This document shows, one piece after another, positions 14,880 through 24,120 of a stretch of 57,316 bases of DNA. Every line of letters begins with the position of its first letter. The first letter of the stretch is position 1. The position numbers and the translations under genes are program-made. The stretch covers positions 1 through 57,316 of the forward strand of contig QEXX01000053.1 of NCBI GenBank assembly GCA_003130835.1, written 5' to 3'. Under the pieces are notes generated by a model, which had not been told where the DNA came from, did not search any database, and was given only the letters and a program-made list of their open reading frames with translations. The stretch comes from Anaerolineae bacterium. GTDB lineage: Bacteria; Chloroflexota; Anaerolineae; Anaerolineales; UBA4823.

Positions 14880-16664
14880 TCAAGCTCCCAGGCGCGCCCG
14901 TTCCTCAGCAACGATCGTTTCGTCCAATTTTTTGAAGAGCGGCGCAGGCTGCATGAGCGCCTGACCCGGTGGCAAGTCGCTGATTTTCCAAGTACCGCTT
15001 GCCTGTGAGCCATCATAGAGCAAAACCCGGTGTTCACCCAGTTCATCGGTTAGCAGCTCGGTTTTTTGTTCGCCGAAGAAGGGCCGCTCATACCCGAAAA
15101 AGCGATGGAGTTTTTCCGTACTAAACGGCAGGAAAGGAGCAAAAAGCACCTTCAAGGTATCAATTGCCCGCAAGGCAGTGAAAATGGATTTAGCGGCCGC
15201 TTCTTTATTGGTTTTGATCTCAAACCAGGGGCCGGTCACATCGAGATATTTATTTACCTCGCTGGCAAGGTTCATCGTCTCTAAAAGGGCTGCCCGCAAA
15301 TGAACAGCTTCCAAGTGTTCACTTACGGTTTGGAAACCTTGGCGAACTTTTTCCAATAATTCCTGGTCAACGGCGCGTAACTCGCCTGCTTCTGGGACAT
15401 GTCCTTCCCAATGTTTGAAGGCAAAAGACAACACCCGATTGGCAAGATTGCCCCAGGTAGCCACCAATTCGCCATTGTTGCGCTGATAGAAATCTTGCCA
15501 ATCCCAATCGGTATCGCGGGTCTCGGGCATATTGGCAGTCAAGTAATAGCGCAGGGGGTCGGGATCATAACGGCTCAGAAAATCATTCCCCCACACCGCC
15601 CAGTTGCGACTGCCCGAGATTTTCTTGCCCTCCAAATTCATGAATTCATTGGCGGGCACGTCATATGGTAACGTCAATCGCTTTCCTTCAAGGTTGGCGA
15701 AGAGCTTCCCAAACCATTCCCCAGAGCCAATCAGCTGGCCTGGCCAGATAATTGCATGAAAGGGGATGTTATCTTTGCCGATAAAATAATAAGCCCGCGC
15801 TTCGGGATTAAACCACCAATCTTGCCAAGCGTCAGCCTGTCCTTGAATTTGCGCCCACTCAATGGTTGCTGAAAGATAGCCGATCACCGCTTCAAACCAA
15901 ACATAGAGACATTTCCCCTCCCAGCCTTCCATCGGCACCGGAATACCCCAATCCAAATCTCGGGTGATCGGTCGGCCGCGCAAGTTTTCGGCTTGGATTT
16001 GGCCCAACGATTGGCGCAAGACATTCGGACGCCAATAGGATTGACGCTCTTCTAAAAAGCGCACGATTTCCGGCTGCAACCTTGCCAGATCGAGGTAGAA
16101 GTGTGCTGTTTGGCGCAATTCGGGGGTCGAGCCATCGATCTTAGAACGCGGGTTAATCAATTGGGTGGCGTCGAGCAAGCTGCCGCAACCGTCACATTGA
16201 TCCCCTCGCGCTCCTTCATATCCACATAGGTAGCAGGTACCTTCGACATAGCGGTCGGGTAAAAACCGATTTTGGGTGGGCGAAAACCATTGTTGTTCGC
16301 TCTGGGTGTAGAGGTATCCATTTTGATTCAAAGCCAAGAAGATCGCCTGTGAGACCTTGAAATGATTGGTCGTATGGGTGCTGGTAAATAGATCATAGGT
16401 CAAGCCAGCTTTAAGGAATAATTCAATAAAGCCCTGATGGTACCGTTGATAAACCTGATATGGAGTAATGCCCTCGGCGTCGGCGCGTACGGTTACCGGC
16501 GTGCCGTGCGAGTCCGATCCCGAAACCATCGCTACTCGATTTCCCTTCAGACGCTGAAAACGGGCGAAGATGTCAGCCGGCAAGTAAGAACCGGTCAGAT
16601 TGCCGACATGAATCTCAGAGTTTGCGTACGGCCAAGCAACCGCCACCAGGATATTTTGGGTCAT
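14880..16664 (-). CDS. metG: Methionyl-tRNA synthetase
   Basis: The enzyme charges tRNA-Met. It is a class I synthetase: the HIGH motif appears as HVGN (residues 19-22, within AWPYANSEIHVGNLTG) and KMSKS as KISGS near residue 347. A zinc knuckle with CYLCGY and CDGCGSLL lies around 145-165, and an anticodon-binding helical domain follows with NGELVATWGNLANRVLSF. At 594 residues it lacks the C-terminal EMAP/Trbp tRNA-binding domain found in some bacterial enzymes. ATG 16664 is chosen because a strong GGAGGAG site lies seven bases upstream; a frame extension of seven codons upstream is not needed. It is preceded by a terminator and a Met-rich leader ORF that together look like an attenuator. 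Confidence 0.96.
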   Translation of the reverse strand: MTQNILVAVAWPYANSEIHVGNLTGSYLPADIFARFQRLKGNRVAMVSGSDSHGTPVTVRADAEGITPYQVYQRYHQGFIELFLKAGLTYDLFTSTHTTNHFKVSQAIFLALNQNGYLYTQSEQQWFSPTQNRFLPDRYVEGTCYLCGYEGARGDQCDGCGSLLDATQLINPRSKIDGSTPELRQTAHFYLDLARLQPEIVRFLEERQSYWRPNVLRQSLGQIQAENLRGRPITRDLDWGIPVPMEGWEGKCLYVWFEAVIGYLSATIEWAQIQGQADAWQDWWFNPEARAYYFIGKDNIPFHAIIWPGQLIGSGEWFGKLFANLEGKRLTLPYDVPANEFMNLEGKKISGSRNWAVWGNDFLSRYDPDPLRYYLTANMPETRDTDWDWQDFYQRNNGELVATWGNLANRVLSFAFKHWEGHVPEAGELRAVDQELLEKVRQGFQTVSEHLEAVHLRAALLETMNLASEVNKYLDVTGPWFEIKTNKEAAAKSIFTALRAIDTLKVLFAPFLPFSTEKLHRFFGYERPFFGEQKTELLTDELGEHRVLLYDGSQASGTWKISDLPPGQALMQPAPLFKKLDETIVAEERARLGA

Positions 16665-16690
16665 GGTATGTCTCCTCCAGAGCAAGAATT

Positions 16691-16716
16691 AAAAAGGCTG
16701 TCCTCTTTGGACAGCC
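16691..16716 (-). terminator. Rho-independent terminator (attenuator) before metG
   Basis: On the minus strand GGCTGTCC (16716-16709), loop AAAGA, and GGACAGCC (16703-16696) form a perfect 8-base-pair stem followed by five T (16695-16691). It lies between the leader ORF and the metG ribosome site, on the same transcript, so it would stop transcription before metG. Confidence 0.85.
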
Positions 16717-16772
16717 CATCAGGTTCGGTGTTTTTCTCTCTCAACCCGATTGGGAAGGTAACCGGGCTGTCC
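16709..16772 (-). promoter_or_regulatory. Predicted antiterminator helix of the metG leader
   Basis: GGACAGCCC at 16772-16764 is perfectly complementary to GGGCTGTCC at 16717-16709, which includes the whole 5' arm of the terminator. The helix can be lengthened by GGTT (16763-16760) with AACC (16725-16722) across a four-base bulge. Pairing this way excludes the terminator. The upstream arm starts 20 bases after the last Met codon of the leader ORF. Confidence 0.7.
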
Positions 16773-16848
16773 GTTTCCGCTGCGGCCTGGGCATCGCCGC
16801 CATCGAAAAGTTCATCATCTTCTTTGGCAACATCATCCAACCGTTCAT
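16741..16848 (-). CDS. Met-rich leader peptide of metG (predicted, 35 aa)
   Basis: The ORF opens at ATG 16848 and ends at TGA 16743-16741. Met is at residues 1, 5, 6, 11, 12, 16 and 19, that is seven of the first 19 codons; the rest is short and basic with no Met. The promoter at 16886-16858 puts the start point about two to four bases before the ATG, so translation would begin on a nearly leaderless mRNA, as proposed for other genes here. The position, length and codon bias match regulatory leader peptides such as PheM before pheST. A second frame over the same bases is rich in Asp and Glu and stays open to the metG start, but has no ATG or GTG, so the GATGATG runs could also be read that way. 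Confidence 0.65.
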   Translation of the reverse strand: MNGWMMLPKKMMNFSMAAMPRPQRKRTARLPSQSG

Positions 16849-16857
16849 ATTGGGGTC

Positions 16858-16886
16858 AGTTTATCCGCGCCGTCGGTTTTTGTCAA
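16858..16886 (-). promoter_or_regulatory. Sigma-70 promoter of the metG leader
   Basis: The minus strand reads TTGACA (16886-16881), a 17-base spacer and TAAACT (16863-16858). The -35 is perfect. It lies about 20 bases after the stop codon of the upstream sigma-factor gene, so metG has its own start in addition to possible read-through. Confidence 0.75.
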
Positions 16887-16906
16887 CCTCTGCTTTAACG
16901 CTGCGG

Positions 16907-17926
16907 CTAAAGATATTCGCGCAGGATTCTGGCTCGACTGGGATGCCGCAAGCGCCGTAAGGCCTGCAGTTCAATCTGACGAATGCGTTCTCGCGTCAAG
17001 CCAAATTTGTCACCCACTTCTTCCAAAGTCAACTGCCTGGGATACCCCAAGCCAAAACGCAAGCGCAGCACGCGCGCCTCACGCGGGCTGAGCGTAGAAA
17101 GCACCTGTTCCACCTGCTCCTGAAGCATCAATTGTTGGACAGCGTCATAGGGTTGCTCCGCCATTTCATCTTCGATGAAAGCTCCAAATTCCGCATCTTC
17201 CTCATCCCCATACGGGTCTTCAAGCGAGAGCGGTGGTTGAGACATCTGCAAGACCCAATCCACTTTTCCGGGTGGTACGTTCAGTTCTGAAGCCAATTCC
17301 TGCGAGGTGGGCATTCTGCCCAAGTCTTGCTCCAGGGCATGAGCCGCCTGTTGAAACTGGCGCACGCGATCGCCTAGATAGACCGGCAAGCGGATCGTGC
17401 GGCTCTGCATGGCAATGGCGCGCATGACGGCTTGACGGATCCACCAAGTAGCATAGGTGGAAAAACGAAATCCGCGCTGGTATTCGAACTTTTCGACGGC
17501 GCGGATTAGACCCAAATTGCCCTCTTGGATGAGGTCGCTCAGTGGCACCCCGCAGCCAATATAGCGCCGTGCGATGGAAATCACCAAACGTGTATTAGCC
17601 TTAATCAAATGTTCACGCGCTGCTAAGCCATCGCTGATCAAGGCTTTGAGTTTAGCCAACTTCCTCTTGCTAATTCTGCCTTTGGTGCTTGCAAGTTCAA
17701 GCTGGGCTTGTTTGCCTCGCTCAAAACGGCACGCTAATTCAATCTCTTCCTGATGACTCAGCAGGGGAACGGCCGCCATCTCACGCAGATAGATATCAAG
17801 GGTGTCATCGGGAAAATGATCCGAATTCTCATCGAAATCCTCCAGCTCCACCGATTCCACCTCGTTCAGAGACGGCAATAGAAACGGATTGACATCCTCA
17901 ACAAGCTTTGCCTCGGATAGAACCAT
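16907..17926 (-). CDS. RNA polymerase sigma factor, RpoD/SigA family (group 1 or 2)
   Basis: The 339-residue protein has region 1.2 (DTLDIYLREMAAVPLLSHQEE), a short charged insert (KGRISKRKLAKLKALI), region 2 with the core-binding and -10 recognition helices (LIQEGNLGLIRAVEKFEYQRGFRFSTYATWWIRQA, split here by function), region 3 (LASELNVPPGKVDWVL, SLEDPYGDEEDAEFG) and region 4 (LSPREARVLRLRFGL, LTLEEVG, TRERIRQIE). It is short for a principal sigma factor because region 1.1 is missing, so it may be the principal one in a short form or a secondary RpoD-like factor. ATG 17926 is chosen because AGGGAGGG lies six bases upstream; ATG 17932 abuts that site. It follows yceD by 42 bases and is probably in the same operon. 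Confidence 0.9.
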   Translation of the reverse strand: MVLSEAKLVEDVNPFLLPSLNEVESVELEDFDENSDHFPDDTLDIYLREMAAVPLLSHQEEIELACRFERGKQAQLELASTKGRISKRKLAKLKALISDGLAAREHLIKANTRLVISIARRYIGCGVPLSDLIQEGNLGLIRAVEKFEYQRGFRFSTYATWWIRQAVMRAIAMQSRTIRLPVYLGDRVRQFQQAAHALEQDLGRMPTSQELASELNVPPGKVDWVLQMSQPPLSLEDPYGDEEDAEFGAFIEDEMAEQPYDAVQQLMLQEQVEQVLSTLSPREARVLRLRFGLGYPRQLTLEEVGDKFGLTRERIRQIELQALRRLRHPSRARILREYL

Positions 17927-21938: not shown

Positions 21939-22015
21939 GGGCGGATAGCTCAGTTGGTTAGAGCACTGCGTTGACATCGCAGAGGTCGCAGGTTCGAGCC
22001 CTGTTCCGCCCACCA
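21939..22015 (+). tRNA. tRNA-Val, anticodon GAC
   Basis: A 77-base cloverleaf: acceptor GGGCGGA with TCCGCCC, D-arm TAGCTCAGTTGGTTAGAGC, anticodon stem CTGCG/CGCAG around TTGACAT with anticodon GAC (reads GUC and GUU Val codons), T-arm with GGTTCGAGCC, discriminator A and an encoded CCA. The T-box leader begins about 10 bases after the CCA. Confidence 0.97.
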
Positions 22016-22025
22016 GAAACCGCGT

Positions 22026-22260
22026 TGATCGGGACGAGTAGCCCTGTCAACCTTGACCCAGAGAGCAGAGACCGCTGGCTGAGAGTCTTTGCACAAGGCA
22101 AGGGCGAAAACCACCCGGGAGCTTAACCCTGAACTGAGGCTGCTCATAGTAAGGGGAACGGAACACCCCGTTATCGGTGTAATGAGATGGACTGTGTATC
22201 AGTTCAATCTGGGTGGAACCGTGTGAGCAATCGCTCTCGCCCCAGGGCGGGAGTTTTTTT
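22026..22260 (+). ncRNA. T-box riboswitch controlling thrS
   Basis: The leader has the classic parts: GGGACGAGTAG at the base of stem I (22031-22041), the AGAGAGC-like and GCTGGCTGAGAG distal elements (about 22060-22085), a specifier region with ACC at 22110-22112 followed by A (a Thr codon, within GAAAACCACC), and the conserved T-box TGGGTGGAACCGTG (22210-22223). The terminator stem CTCTCGCC (22234-22241) with GGCGGGAG (22246-22253) is followed by seven T. Uncharged tRNA-Thr should bind the specifier and the T-box bulge and favour the antiterminator, turning on thrS when threonine charging falls. Confidence 0.92.
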
Positions 22261-22329
22261 GTTTTCCCTGACTCTGCGATCTGCTTTTTGAACATCTGTG
22301 CGTGTTGCATGCTGAATTTGGAGGTAGGA

Positions 22330-24120
22330 ATGAATAAAAAAGCCGAAAAACAACCTGAAGACGACTTGCTTTTTCGAATCCGTCATTCAACAGCCCATGT
22401 GATGGCGCAAGCGGTTTTGGAGTTGTTCCCGGACGGCAAATACACCATCGGGCCGGCGATCGAGGACGGTTTTTATTACGATTTTGACCTGCCACGCAAT
22501 TTGACCCCAGAGGACTTAGAGAAGATTGAACGGCGCATGAAAGAGATCATCCGCCAAAATCATGCTTTTAAGAAAAAGGTGGTCTCCGCCGAAGAAGCGC
22601 GCCAAATTTTCAAAGATCAGCCCTATAAACTCGAACTGATCAACGACTTGGAAAAGGGGGGCACGGATGAACACGGCAATCCCTTGACCGAAAAGCCAGA
22701 AATTTCCATTTATACCCATGATACGTTTGTCGATCTGTGTCGCGGCCCCCATGTCGAAAACACTTCGCAGATCAACCCAGAGGCTATCAAGCTCATTAAC
22801 GTTGCTGGAGCCTACTGGCGGGGCAACGAGAAAAACCCCATGTTGCAACGCATCTACGGCACAGCCTGGCACACCAAAGAAGAACTTGAAGAATATCTTT
22901 GGCGCTTGGAAGAAGCGAAAAAGCGCGATCATCGCCGCCTTGGTAAAGAGCTGGGCCTATTTAGCACCTCTCAAGAAGTCGGCAGCGGCCTGATTCTTTG
23001 GCATCCTAAGGGAGCCTTGATTCGACATCTGGCAGAAGAATATTGCAAACAAGAACACCTGGCAAACGGCTATGATTTGGTCTATTCCCCCCACATCGGT
23101 CGCGCAACGTTATGGGAAACCAGCGGTCATCTGGCATGGTACAAGGAAAACATGTATGCGCCAATTGATATCGAAGGGGAAGAGTATTTCTTAAAACCGA
23201 TGAACTGCCCTTTCCACATTATGATCTACAAAAGCCAGATTCACAGCTACCGCGACCTGCCCATGCGTCTCGCCGAGTGGGGCACGGTCTACCGCTACGA
23301 GCGCAGTGGGGTCTTACATGGGTTGATGCGGGTACGCGGTTTCACCCAAGATGATGCCCACCTCTTCTGTCGTCCCGATCAAATGCCCGAAGAGATCGAC
23401 CGCGTGCTCAATTTTTGCTTGCACATTTTACAAGCCTTCGGGATGAATGAATTTCACGCCTATCTTTCTACTCGCGACCCAGAAAAATCGGCTGGTGAAG
23501 CCAGCCGCTGGGAAGATGCCACCCAAGCCCTCAAGATGGCGCTCGACCGGGCTGGCTTGTCGTATGACATCGATCCGGGGGGAGCCGCCTTTTATGGGCC
23601 GAAGATCGACTTAAAAATGATCGATGCCCTGGGGCGCGAATGGCAACTCAGCACCATTCAATTTGACTTCAACCTACCCGAGCGCTTTGACCTGACCTTT
23701 ATCGGCGAAGATGGCAAAGCGTATCGACCGTATATGATTCATCGCGCCTTGTTGGGTTCGATGGAACGCTTCATGGGCGTCCTAATCGAACATTTCGCCG
23801 GCGCTTTTCCGGTTTGGTTGTCACCAGTACAAGCGGTCTTAATTCCGATTGCCGATCGTCACCTGGACTACGCTCGTCAGGTAGCCGCACAGCTCAAGGC
23901 AGCCGGTTTACGCGTCGAAGTCGACCAGCGTAGCGAACGGATGAACGCCAAAATCCGCGATGCGCAGACGCAGAAAATCCCCTATATGCTGGTGGTTGGA
24001 GATAAAGAACAGGAGAACAACCAAGTTGCCTTACGCCTGCGTTCGGGTGAAAACCCCGGCCCGATGAGCGTAGAAACTTTTCTCGAACGCGCCCGTCAAG
24101 ATATCGCTGCCCATCGCTAA
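22330..24120 (+). CDS. thrS: Threonyl-tRNA synthetase without TGS domain
   Basis: The enzyme charges tRNA-Thr. The 596-residue protein starts directly with the second editing-type domain: HSTAH (19-23) and CRGPH. The class II catalytic core follows, with LKPMNCPFHIMIYKS, YRYERSGVLHGLMRVRGFTQDDAH (split by an insert-free core) and GSMERFMGVLIEH, then the anticodon-binding domain to the end. The N-terminal TGS domain of the common bacterial enzyme is missing, so it is about 45 residues shorter. ATG 22330 is chosen because GGAGG lies five bases before it; the frame is open upstream, but only across the T-box. Confidence 0.96.
   Translation: MNKKAEKQPEDDLLFRIRHSTAHVMAQAVLELFPDGKYTIGPAIEDGFYYDFDLPRNLTPEDLEKIERRMKEIIRQNHAFKKKVVSAEEARQIFKDQPYKLELINDLEKGGTDEHGNPLTEKPEISIYTHDTFVDLCRGPHVENTSQINPEAIKLINVAGAYWRGNEKNPMLQRIYGTAWHTKEELEEYLWRLEEAKKRDHRRLGKELGLFSTSQEVGSGLILWHPKGALIRHLAEEYCKQEHLANGYDLVYSPHIGRATLWETSGHLAWYKENMYAPIDIEGEEYFLKPMNCPFHIMIYKSQIHSYRDLPMRLAEWGTVYRYERSGVLHGLMRVRGFTQDDAHLFCRPDQMPEEIDRVLNFCLHILQAFGMNEFHAYLSTRDPEKSAGEASRWEDATQALKMALDRAGLSYDIDPGGAAFYGPKIDLKMIDALGREWQLSTIQFDFNLPERFDLTFIGEDGKAYRPYMIHRALLGSMERFMGVLIEHFAGAFPVWLSPVQAVLIPIADRHLDYARQVAAQLKAAGLRVEVDQRSERMNAKIRDAQTQKIPYMLVVGDKEQENNQVALRLRSGENPGPMSVETFLERARQDIAAHR

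Follow-up and report, generated by a model that had tools for sequence, protein, structure and literature searches.

Leader-peptide attenuation is textbook regulation for Trp, His, Phe, Leu, Thr and other amino acids, and PheM/pheST of Escherichia coli, in which a peptide rich in the cognate amino acid is combined with alternative antiterminator and terminator structures, shows that its target can be an aminoacyl-tRNA synthetase. T-box leaders (RF00230) bind tRNA directly, and uncharged cognate tRNA makes them raise synthetase expression. Classical attenuators, with leader peptides, a terminator and an antiterminator, have been predicted for trpS2 and leuS of Streptomyces (Seliverstov 2005, PMC1262725), and in bacilli His leader peptides before hisS or hisZ stand in for the T-box (Naville and Gautheret 2010, PMC2965389). 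The former study reported no conserved upstream RNA structure for the methionine operons of Actinobacteria and described mycobacterial cys leaders without an obvious terminator (PMC1262725); the latter does not mention metG (PMC2965389). Leader ORFs can also begin at the very 5′ end of the transcript, as peTrpL of Sinorhizobium meliloti does (PMC7298713) and as described for the leaderless polycysteine uORFs found in mycobacteria (Canestrari 2020, cited in PMC13236596).

Here we describe a locus of an Anaerolineae bacterium at which metG, encoding methionyl-tRNA synthetase, appears to be controlled by a ribosome-mediated transcription attenuator that senses charged Met-tRNA. We put the probability of this reading at about 0.87 in the absence of expression data; its basis is sequence and comparison, which cover the ORF, its Met frame, the terminator, region 2 and its position (see below), the specificity for metG and the distribution among genomes. 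The metG leader resembles PheM/pheST in its cognate-rich peptide, its alternative antiterminator and terminator and its synthetase target, but differs in using Met rather than Phe, in its unrelated sequence, in being probably leaderless in many members and in belonging to Chloroflexota. With Streptomyces trpS2 and leuS, which use Trp or Leu, it shares the leader peptide, terminator and antiterminator at a synthetase gene; with hisS and hisZ of bacilli, which use His and belong to Firmicutes, it shares a peptide leader at such a gene; and with peTrpL and the mycobacterial Cys uORFs, which concern Trp or Cys and biosynthesis genes, it shares the start at the 5′ end. Like a T-box it would raise synthetase expression on uncharged tRNA (the response of metG being inferred), whereas a T-box binds the tRNA directly. 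We found no report of a Met leader peptide, of metG attenuation or of leaders in Chloroflexi/Anaerolineae in the open literature, which leaves subscription papers uncovered and is not proof of absence. Ribosome-mediated attenuation is a known mechanism, and it is the methionine version for which we found no earlier report in that literature.

A Met-rich leader ORF and an intrinsic terminator precede metG

The window (the whole stretch of DNA that was analysed, 57,316 nucleotides) carries the following features upstream of and including metG.

16858–16886, minus strand: promoter of the leader transcript (−35 TTGACA at 16886–16881, 17 nt, −10 TAAACT at 16863–16858; 10 of 12 matches)
16741–16848, minus strand: leader ORF of 35 codons with ATG at 16848 and no Shine-Dalgarno sequence; translation MNGWMMLPKKMMNFSMAAMPRPQRKRTARLPSQSG, then stop
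16792–16836, minus strand: putative control codons, the internal Met codons 5, 6, 11, 12, 16 and 19 (codon 19 at 16794–16792)
16764–16772, minus strand: region 2, GGACAGCCC, predicted 5′ strand of the antiterminator, inside the ORF and 19 nt past the last Met codon
16718–16750, minus strand: predicted inner stem of the antiterminator, AUCGGGUU (16750–16743) with AACCUGAU (16725–16718), reaching the leader stop codon
16709–16717, minus strand: region 3, GGGCTGTCC, the shared strand (predicted 3′ strand of the antiterminator and 5′ arm of the terminator)
16691–16703, minus strand: region 4 and U tract, GGACAGCC TTTTT, 3′ arm of the intrinsic terminator
14880–16664, minus strand: metG, methionyl-tRNA synthetase, the putatively controlled gene (start codon 16664–16662; Shine-Dalgarno GGAGG 16678–16674)

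The first-pass annotation of this DNA had described the TTGACA-17-TAAACT promoter, the ATG at 16848, the 35-codon ORF, its Met positions and metG as the next gene, and the sequence reads as described: Met occupies positions 1, 5, 6, 11, 12, 16 and 19, seven of the first 19 codons. What had been overlooked were an intrinsic terminator between the ORF and metG, GGGCTGTCC-AAAGA-GGACAGCC-TTTTT (16717–16691, minus strand), and a segment of the ORF (16772–16764) that is complementary to the 5′ arm of this terminator. This segment, region 2, is the exact complement of the arm, and the duplex (−20.0 kcal/mol) is stronger than that of shuffled segments (p = 0.003). When the genome was searched for further copies of the attenuator, the pair of region 2 and terminator proved to be single copy. 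We read the leader ORF as sitting on a complete, putative four-part attenuator consisting of the Met codons, region 2, region 3 and region 4.

The identity of metG is supported by TIGR00398 at 488.8 bits (cut-off 336.4), with which Pfam agrees, and the gene is probably transcribed alone because a convergent gene comes next. A sigma-70 gene upstream of the leader ends at 16907. The terminator is within about 200 nt of that end and could in principle belong to the sigma-factor gene, with metG having its own promoter and the Met ORF arising by chance, but the sole promoter-like site on the minus strand within 16400–17100 is 5′ of the terminator, the U tract is only ~27 nt from metG, and the Met ORF recurs far more often than chance allows (see below), which makes this explanation very improbable. 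Elsewhere in the window (21939–24120, plus strand) a tRNA-Val(GAC) gene is directly followed by a T-box leader (22016–22247) before thrS; the window thus holds two synthetase genes, metG and thrS, ~5–6 kb apart, each with a different type of attenuation.

The −10 element is 9 nt from the leader ATG, and both the promoter and this spacing are kept in five same-genus genomes. From the promoter spacing we infer that transcription starts 2–4 nt 5′ of the ATG, and the leader ORF in the window is probably leaderless or nearly so. The near-leaderless peptide proposed at first pass is in keeping with the relatives, 45 of the 73 leaders with a scored promoter having their first in-frame ATG 6–9 nt past the −10 element (most commonly 7), again with transcription starts inferred; many of the remaining scored leaders have a Shine-Dalgarno-like sequence. 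Because the start codon is 6–9 nt past the −10 element in ~60% of scored leaders, most leaders are probably leaderless, and a start at or near the 5′ terminus is thus a recurring trait of metG leaders, as far as inferred and unmapped start sites allow.

The Met frame is kept while neighbouring codons change

The expectation at first pass that ATG codons of this frame would be kept while other codons drift was borne out in four of the five same-genus genomes (G000, G004, G001 and G003), in which ATG codons 11, 12, 16 and 19 remain as neighbouring codons change; in the fifth, G002, an insertion that preserves the frame has displaced the Met codons. No stop interrupts the Met frame in any of the five. 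In the Met-dense stretches of 86 leaders, drawn from 21 families, ATG trinucleotides are distributed over the three frames as 420:12:6, with the leader frame first. Part of this bias stems from picking the densest frame, which does not account for the near absence of out-of-frame ATGs.

The region has a second open frame, acidic and uninterrupted across 59 codons in the window (DDVAKEDDELFDGGDA...), and if this encoded a conserved small protein the Met codons might be a mere by-product of GATGATG. Homologues keeping the Asp/Glu frame instead of the Met frame had been named as what would refute the leader peptide. They were not found among the same-genus genomes: the acidic frame contains stops in G003 and in G002, it has no Pfam match, and the 420:12:6 bias goes against it. 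We therefore rejected it as a gene and regard this explanation as having very little chance of being right.

A sister species, G005, shows what remains when the leader decays. Its start codon is lost (ACG at the expected place, by eye) and its internal Met codons and U tract are gone; regions 2 and 3 are still present. This joint decay suggests, from sequence alone, that sensor and terminator work together. The inner antiterminator stem of the window species was not evident in the sister species.

Met-rich leaders are widespread in Anaerolineae and specific for metG

For a broader comparison we sampled the sequence upstream of metG in 240 genomes, one region per genome, and scored as Met-rich leaders those ORFs with at least 4 ATG codons in 20 that lay no more than 300 nt from metG. 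Such leaders preceded metG in 67% of 86 same-order genomes (1.3% of dinucleotide shuffles) and in 29.5% of 95 other genomes of the class (0.9% of shuffles), compared with 1.9% in other Chloroflexota classes (0.5% of shuffles); one third of the order-level genomes had no clear Met leader. Within the order 9 of 15 families were represented, as were 12 of 31 families outside it, making at least 21 Anaerolineae families. More stringent thresholds, applied to the 300 nt before metG, gave the same picture: at least 5 Met in 20 codons occurred in 46.5% of the 86 same-order genomes (dinucleotide shuffles 0.1%, reverse complements 0%), and at least 7 in 8% (null 0). Because leader recurrence so far exceeds that in shuffles and reverse complements, the Met density in the window is not a product of chance. 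A strong terminator lay between leader and metG in 69 of the 86 leaders, with 0.1 expected from mononucleotide shuffles.

None of 78 upstream regions of hisS, trpS or leuS in the relatives had 4 Met in 15 codons, compared with 51% of 57 metG regions, and among these synthetase genes the Met-rich leader is, on this evidence, confined to metG. We also considered that a T-box, a SAM riboswitch or another known sensor of metabolites or tRNA controls metG and that the ORF is incidental. A T-box does occur 5 kb away, before thrS, but the metG leader itself gave no match to RF00230 (specifier loop, T-box sequence) and no credible match to the Rfam amino-acid leader families or SAM riboswitches, and no Rfam family matched any of 20 Met-leader regions from the window and its relatives; given the evidence for the ORF as well, we consider this explanation extremely unlikely. 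Rfam likewise identified no known regulatory RNA at 20 metG loci taken from other Chloroflexota classes.

The survey also turned up several variants. The metG leader peptide of one genome (L104, G388) contains 12 Met (MEMRLVQVMIFMMRAMRVMMMRAMRDTMMRYTCWRGYPAYARSY). In another (L017, G017) the Met ORF is gone and a terminator, GAAGCTGTCC...GACAGCTTTATTTT, still stands before metG; its sister genome G031 has a leader with 3 Met. In three further families of the order, His-rich leader peptides stand before hisS (L254 in G038, L265 in G046 and L266 in G039; e.g. ...MNKYCLLTHATASHHHHHHNGHFSLG), and leader-peptide control of synthetases may accordingly be broader in Anaerolineae.

In several families the leader ORF and the terminator change in concert and still pair

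In f1, the family of the window species, the duplex of regions 2 and 3 was stronger than that of shuffled segments (p < 0.05) in 22 of 27 leaders. The terminator sequence differs in other families and region 2 changes with it, giving strong pairs in f1, f30 and part of f34; the two strands have both changed in f30 and f34 and still pair, for example TGGCGCGGCT with AGGCCGCGCC (G235) and ACAGGCGGC with GCCGCCTGT (G319). A simple duplex of regions 2 and 3 was no better than chance in f12 (2 of 23 leaders at p < 0.05) and likewise not significant in several GC-rich families, so the antiterminator is imperfect or different there. When arms of all types were compared, a leader's own terminator arm was its best partner in 30 of 93 cases, a count that carries no information because GC-rich arms stick to everything.

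In three separate family groups, complementarity to the terminator arm peaked 11–20 nt past the last Met codon: at 13–15 and 19–20 nt in f1, at 16–18 nt in f12 and at 11–19 nt in the other families (one extra Met that abuts region 2 in G001 was left out). Once its A site holds the last Met codon, a ribosome covers roughly 10–12 nt past that codon. As judged from this positional profile, region 2 is placed where stalling at Met would require it.

These data bear on the possibility that the Met ORF and the terminator are real and no internal antiterminator exists, in which case translation to the stop codon would permit the terminator, or control would run through Rho or translational coupling. 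The weak duplexes of f12 and the GC-rich families fit such an arrangement, but the strong, co-changing pairs of f1, f30 and part of f34 do not, and the positional peak is seen in f12 and other families too. We consider it unlikely, though less easily set aside than the other alternatives, and retain the attenuator with a competing antiterminator as the preferred reading.

Two further features of these leaders were seen. Towards their C-termini, the metG leader peptides of f1, f12, f64 and f67 have a [W/R]-x-A or PWR motif in common, which apparently arises from the constant frame in which region 2 (YGG-NNN-GCN or TGGCGG) is read. In L102 and L108 (families f67 and f64), a possible second hairpin, in which TGCCGTGG pairs with CCACGGCA, competes with TGGCGG:CCGCCA pairing, which suggests a different internal switch architecture.

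RNA folding predicts a ribosome-controlled switch

To model the switch, we folded the RNA left free beyond the front edge of a ribosome placed at a given codon. With the ribosome at Met12 or Met19 and RNA up to region 3, the minimum-energy fold paired regions 2 and 3 (−35.9 and −26.0 kcal/mol, respectively), and with the ribosome at Met19 this antiterminator survived the addition of region 4 and the U tract (−32.3 kcal/mol). Moving the ribosome over region 2 or to the stop codon gave the terminator as the predicted fold. When the ribosome was placed at the last Met of 34 leaders, the median probability of pairing between regions 2 and 3 before region 4 was made was 0.98. In complete RNAs with a stalled ribosome the terminator was often still favoured thermodynamically (median probability 0.96), and comparing the probabilities of terminator and antiterminator in complete RNAs did not separate the two states. 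The decision must therefore fall during transcription, as is usual for attenuation. In free leader RNA of the window species, before region 4, regions 2 and 3 paired with a probability of 1.0 and no upstream hairpin blocked region 2; among other leaders this free-RNA probability ranged from 0 to 1.

Discussion

Our results favour the following model, in which the transcription start, the actual translation, the stalling and the response to Met-tRNA are inferred. Transcription would begin a few bases 5′ of the leader ATG, and a ribosome would start the Met-rich ORF close behind RNA polymerase. When Met-tRNA is ample, this ribosome would reach the 3′ end of the ORF and cover or separate region 2 (GGACAGCCC); with region 2 sequestered, region 3 (GGGCUGUCC) would pair with region 4 and transcription would stop before metG. 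When Met-tRNA is scarce, the ribosome would stall at a Met codon with its front edge leaving region 2 free, and region 2 could then pair with region 3, preventing the terminator and allowing metG to be transcribed. Three things expected of an attenuator are present, namely an ORF rich in cognate codons, an intrinsic terminator and a conserved leader frame; a fourth, a mutually exclusive antiterminator under ribosome control, is predicted for the window and f1. The analogy with PheM-pheST drawn in the first-pass annotation is thus strengthened by the terminator and competing antiterminator, and by the wide occurrence of the Met-rich ORF in Anaerolineae and its specificity for metG, with stalling and Met-tRNA dependence remaining inferences.

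Methionine is an awkward case for a leader peptide, as the same synthetase supplies the initiator tRNA for leader translation. Because MetG also charges this initiator tRNA, a severe shortage should lower initiation on the leader. Region 2 has no protecting upstream hairpin in the window species and some relatives, and since none blocks it in the window, an untranslated leader may be ON there too. We tentatively raise the possibility, in which our confidence is low, that the attenuator is fail-safe: the leader may sense initiator as well as elongator Met-tRNA, with the antiterminator free to form whether the ribosome is absent or stalled and with initiation at the 5′-terminal AUG as part of the sensor. 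Such a design, if true, would avoid the shut-off expected of classical attenuators with an untranslated leader.

The complementarity that starts 11–20 nt past the last Met codon offers a natural measure of the ribosome footprint and of coupling, and the frequent leaderless starts could be used to test 70S initiation when fMet-tRNA is short. Anaerolineae are a poorly studied class, and leaders of this kind occur in at least 21 of its families.
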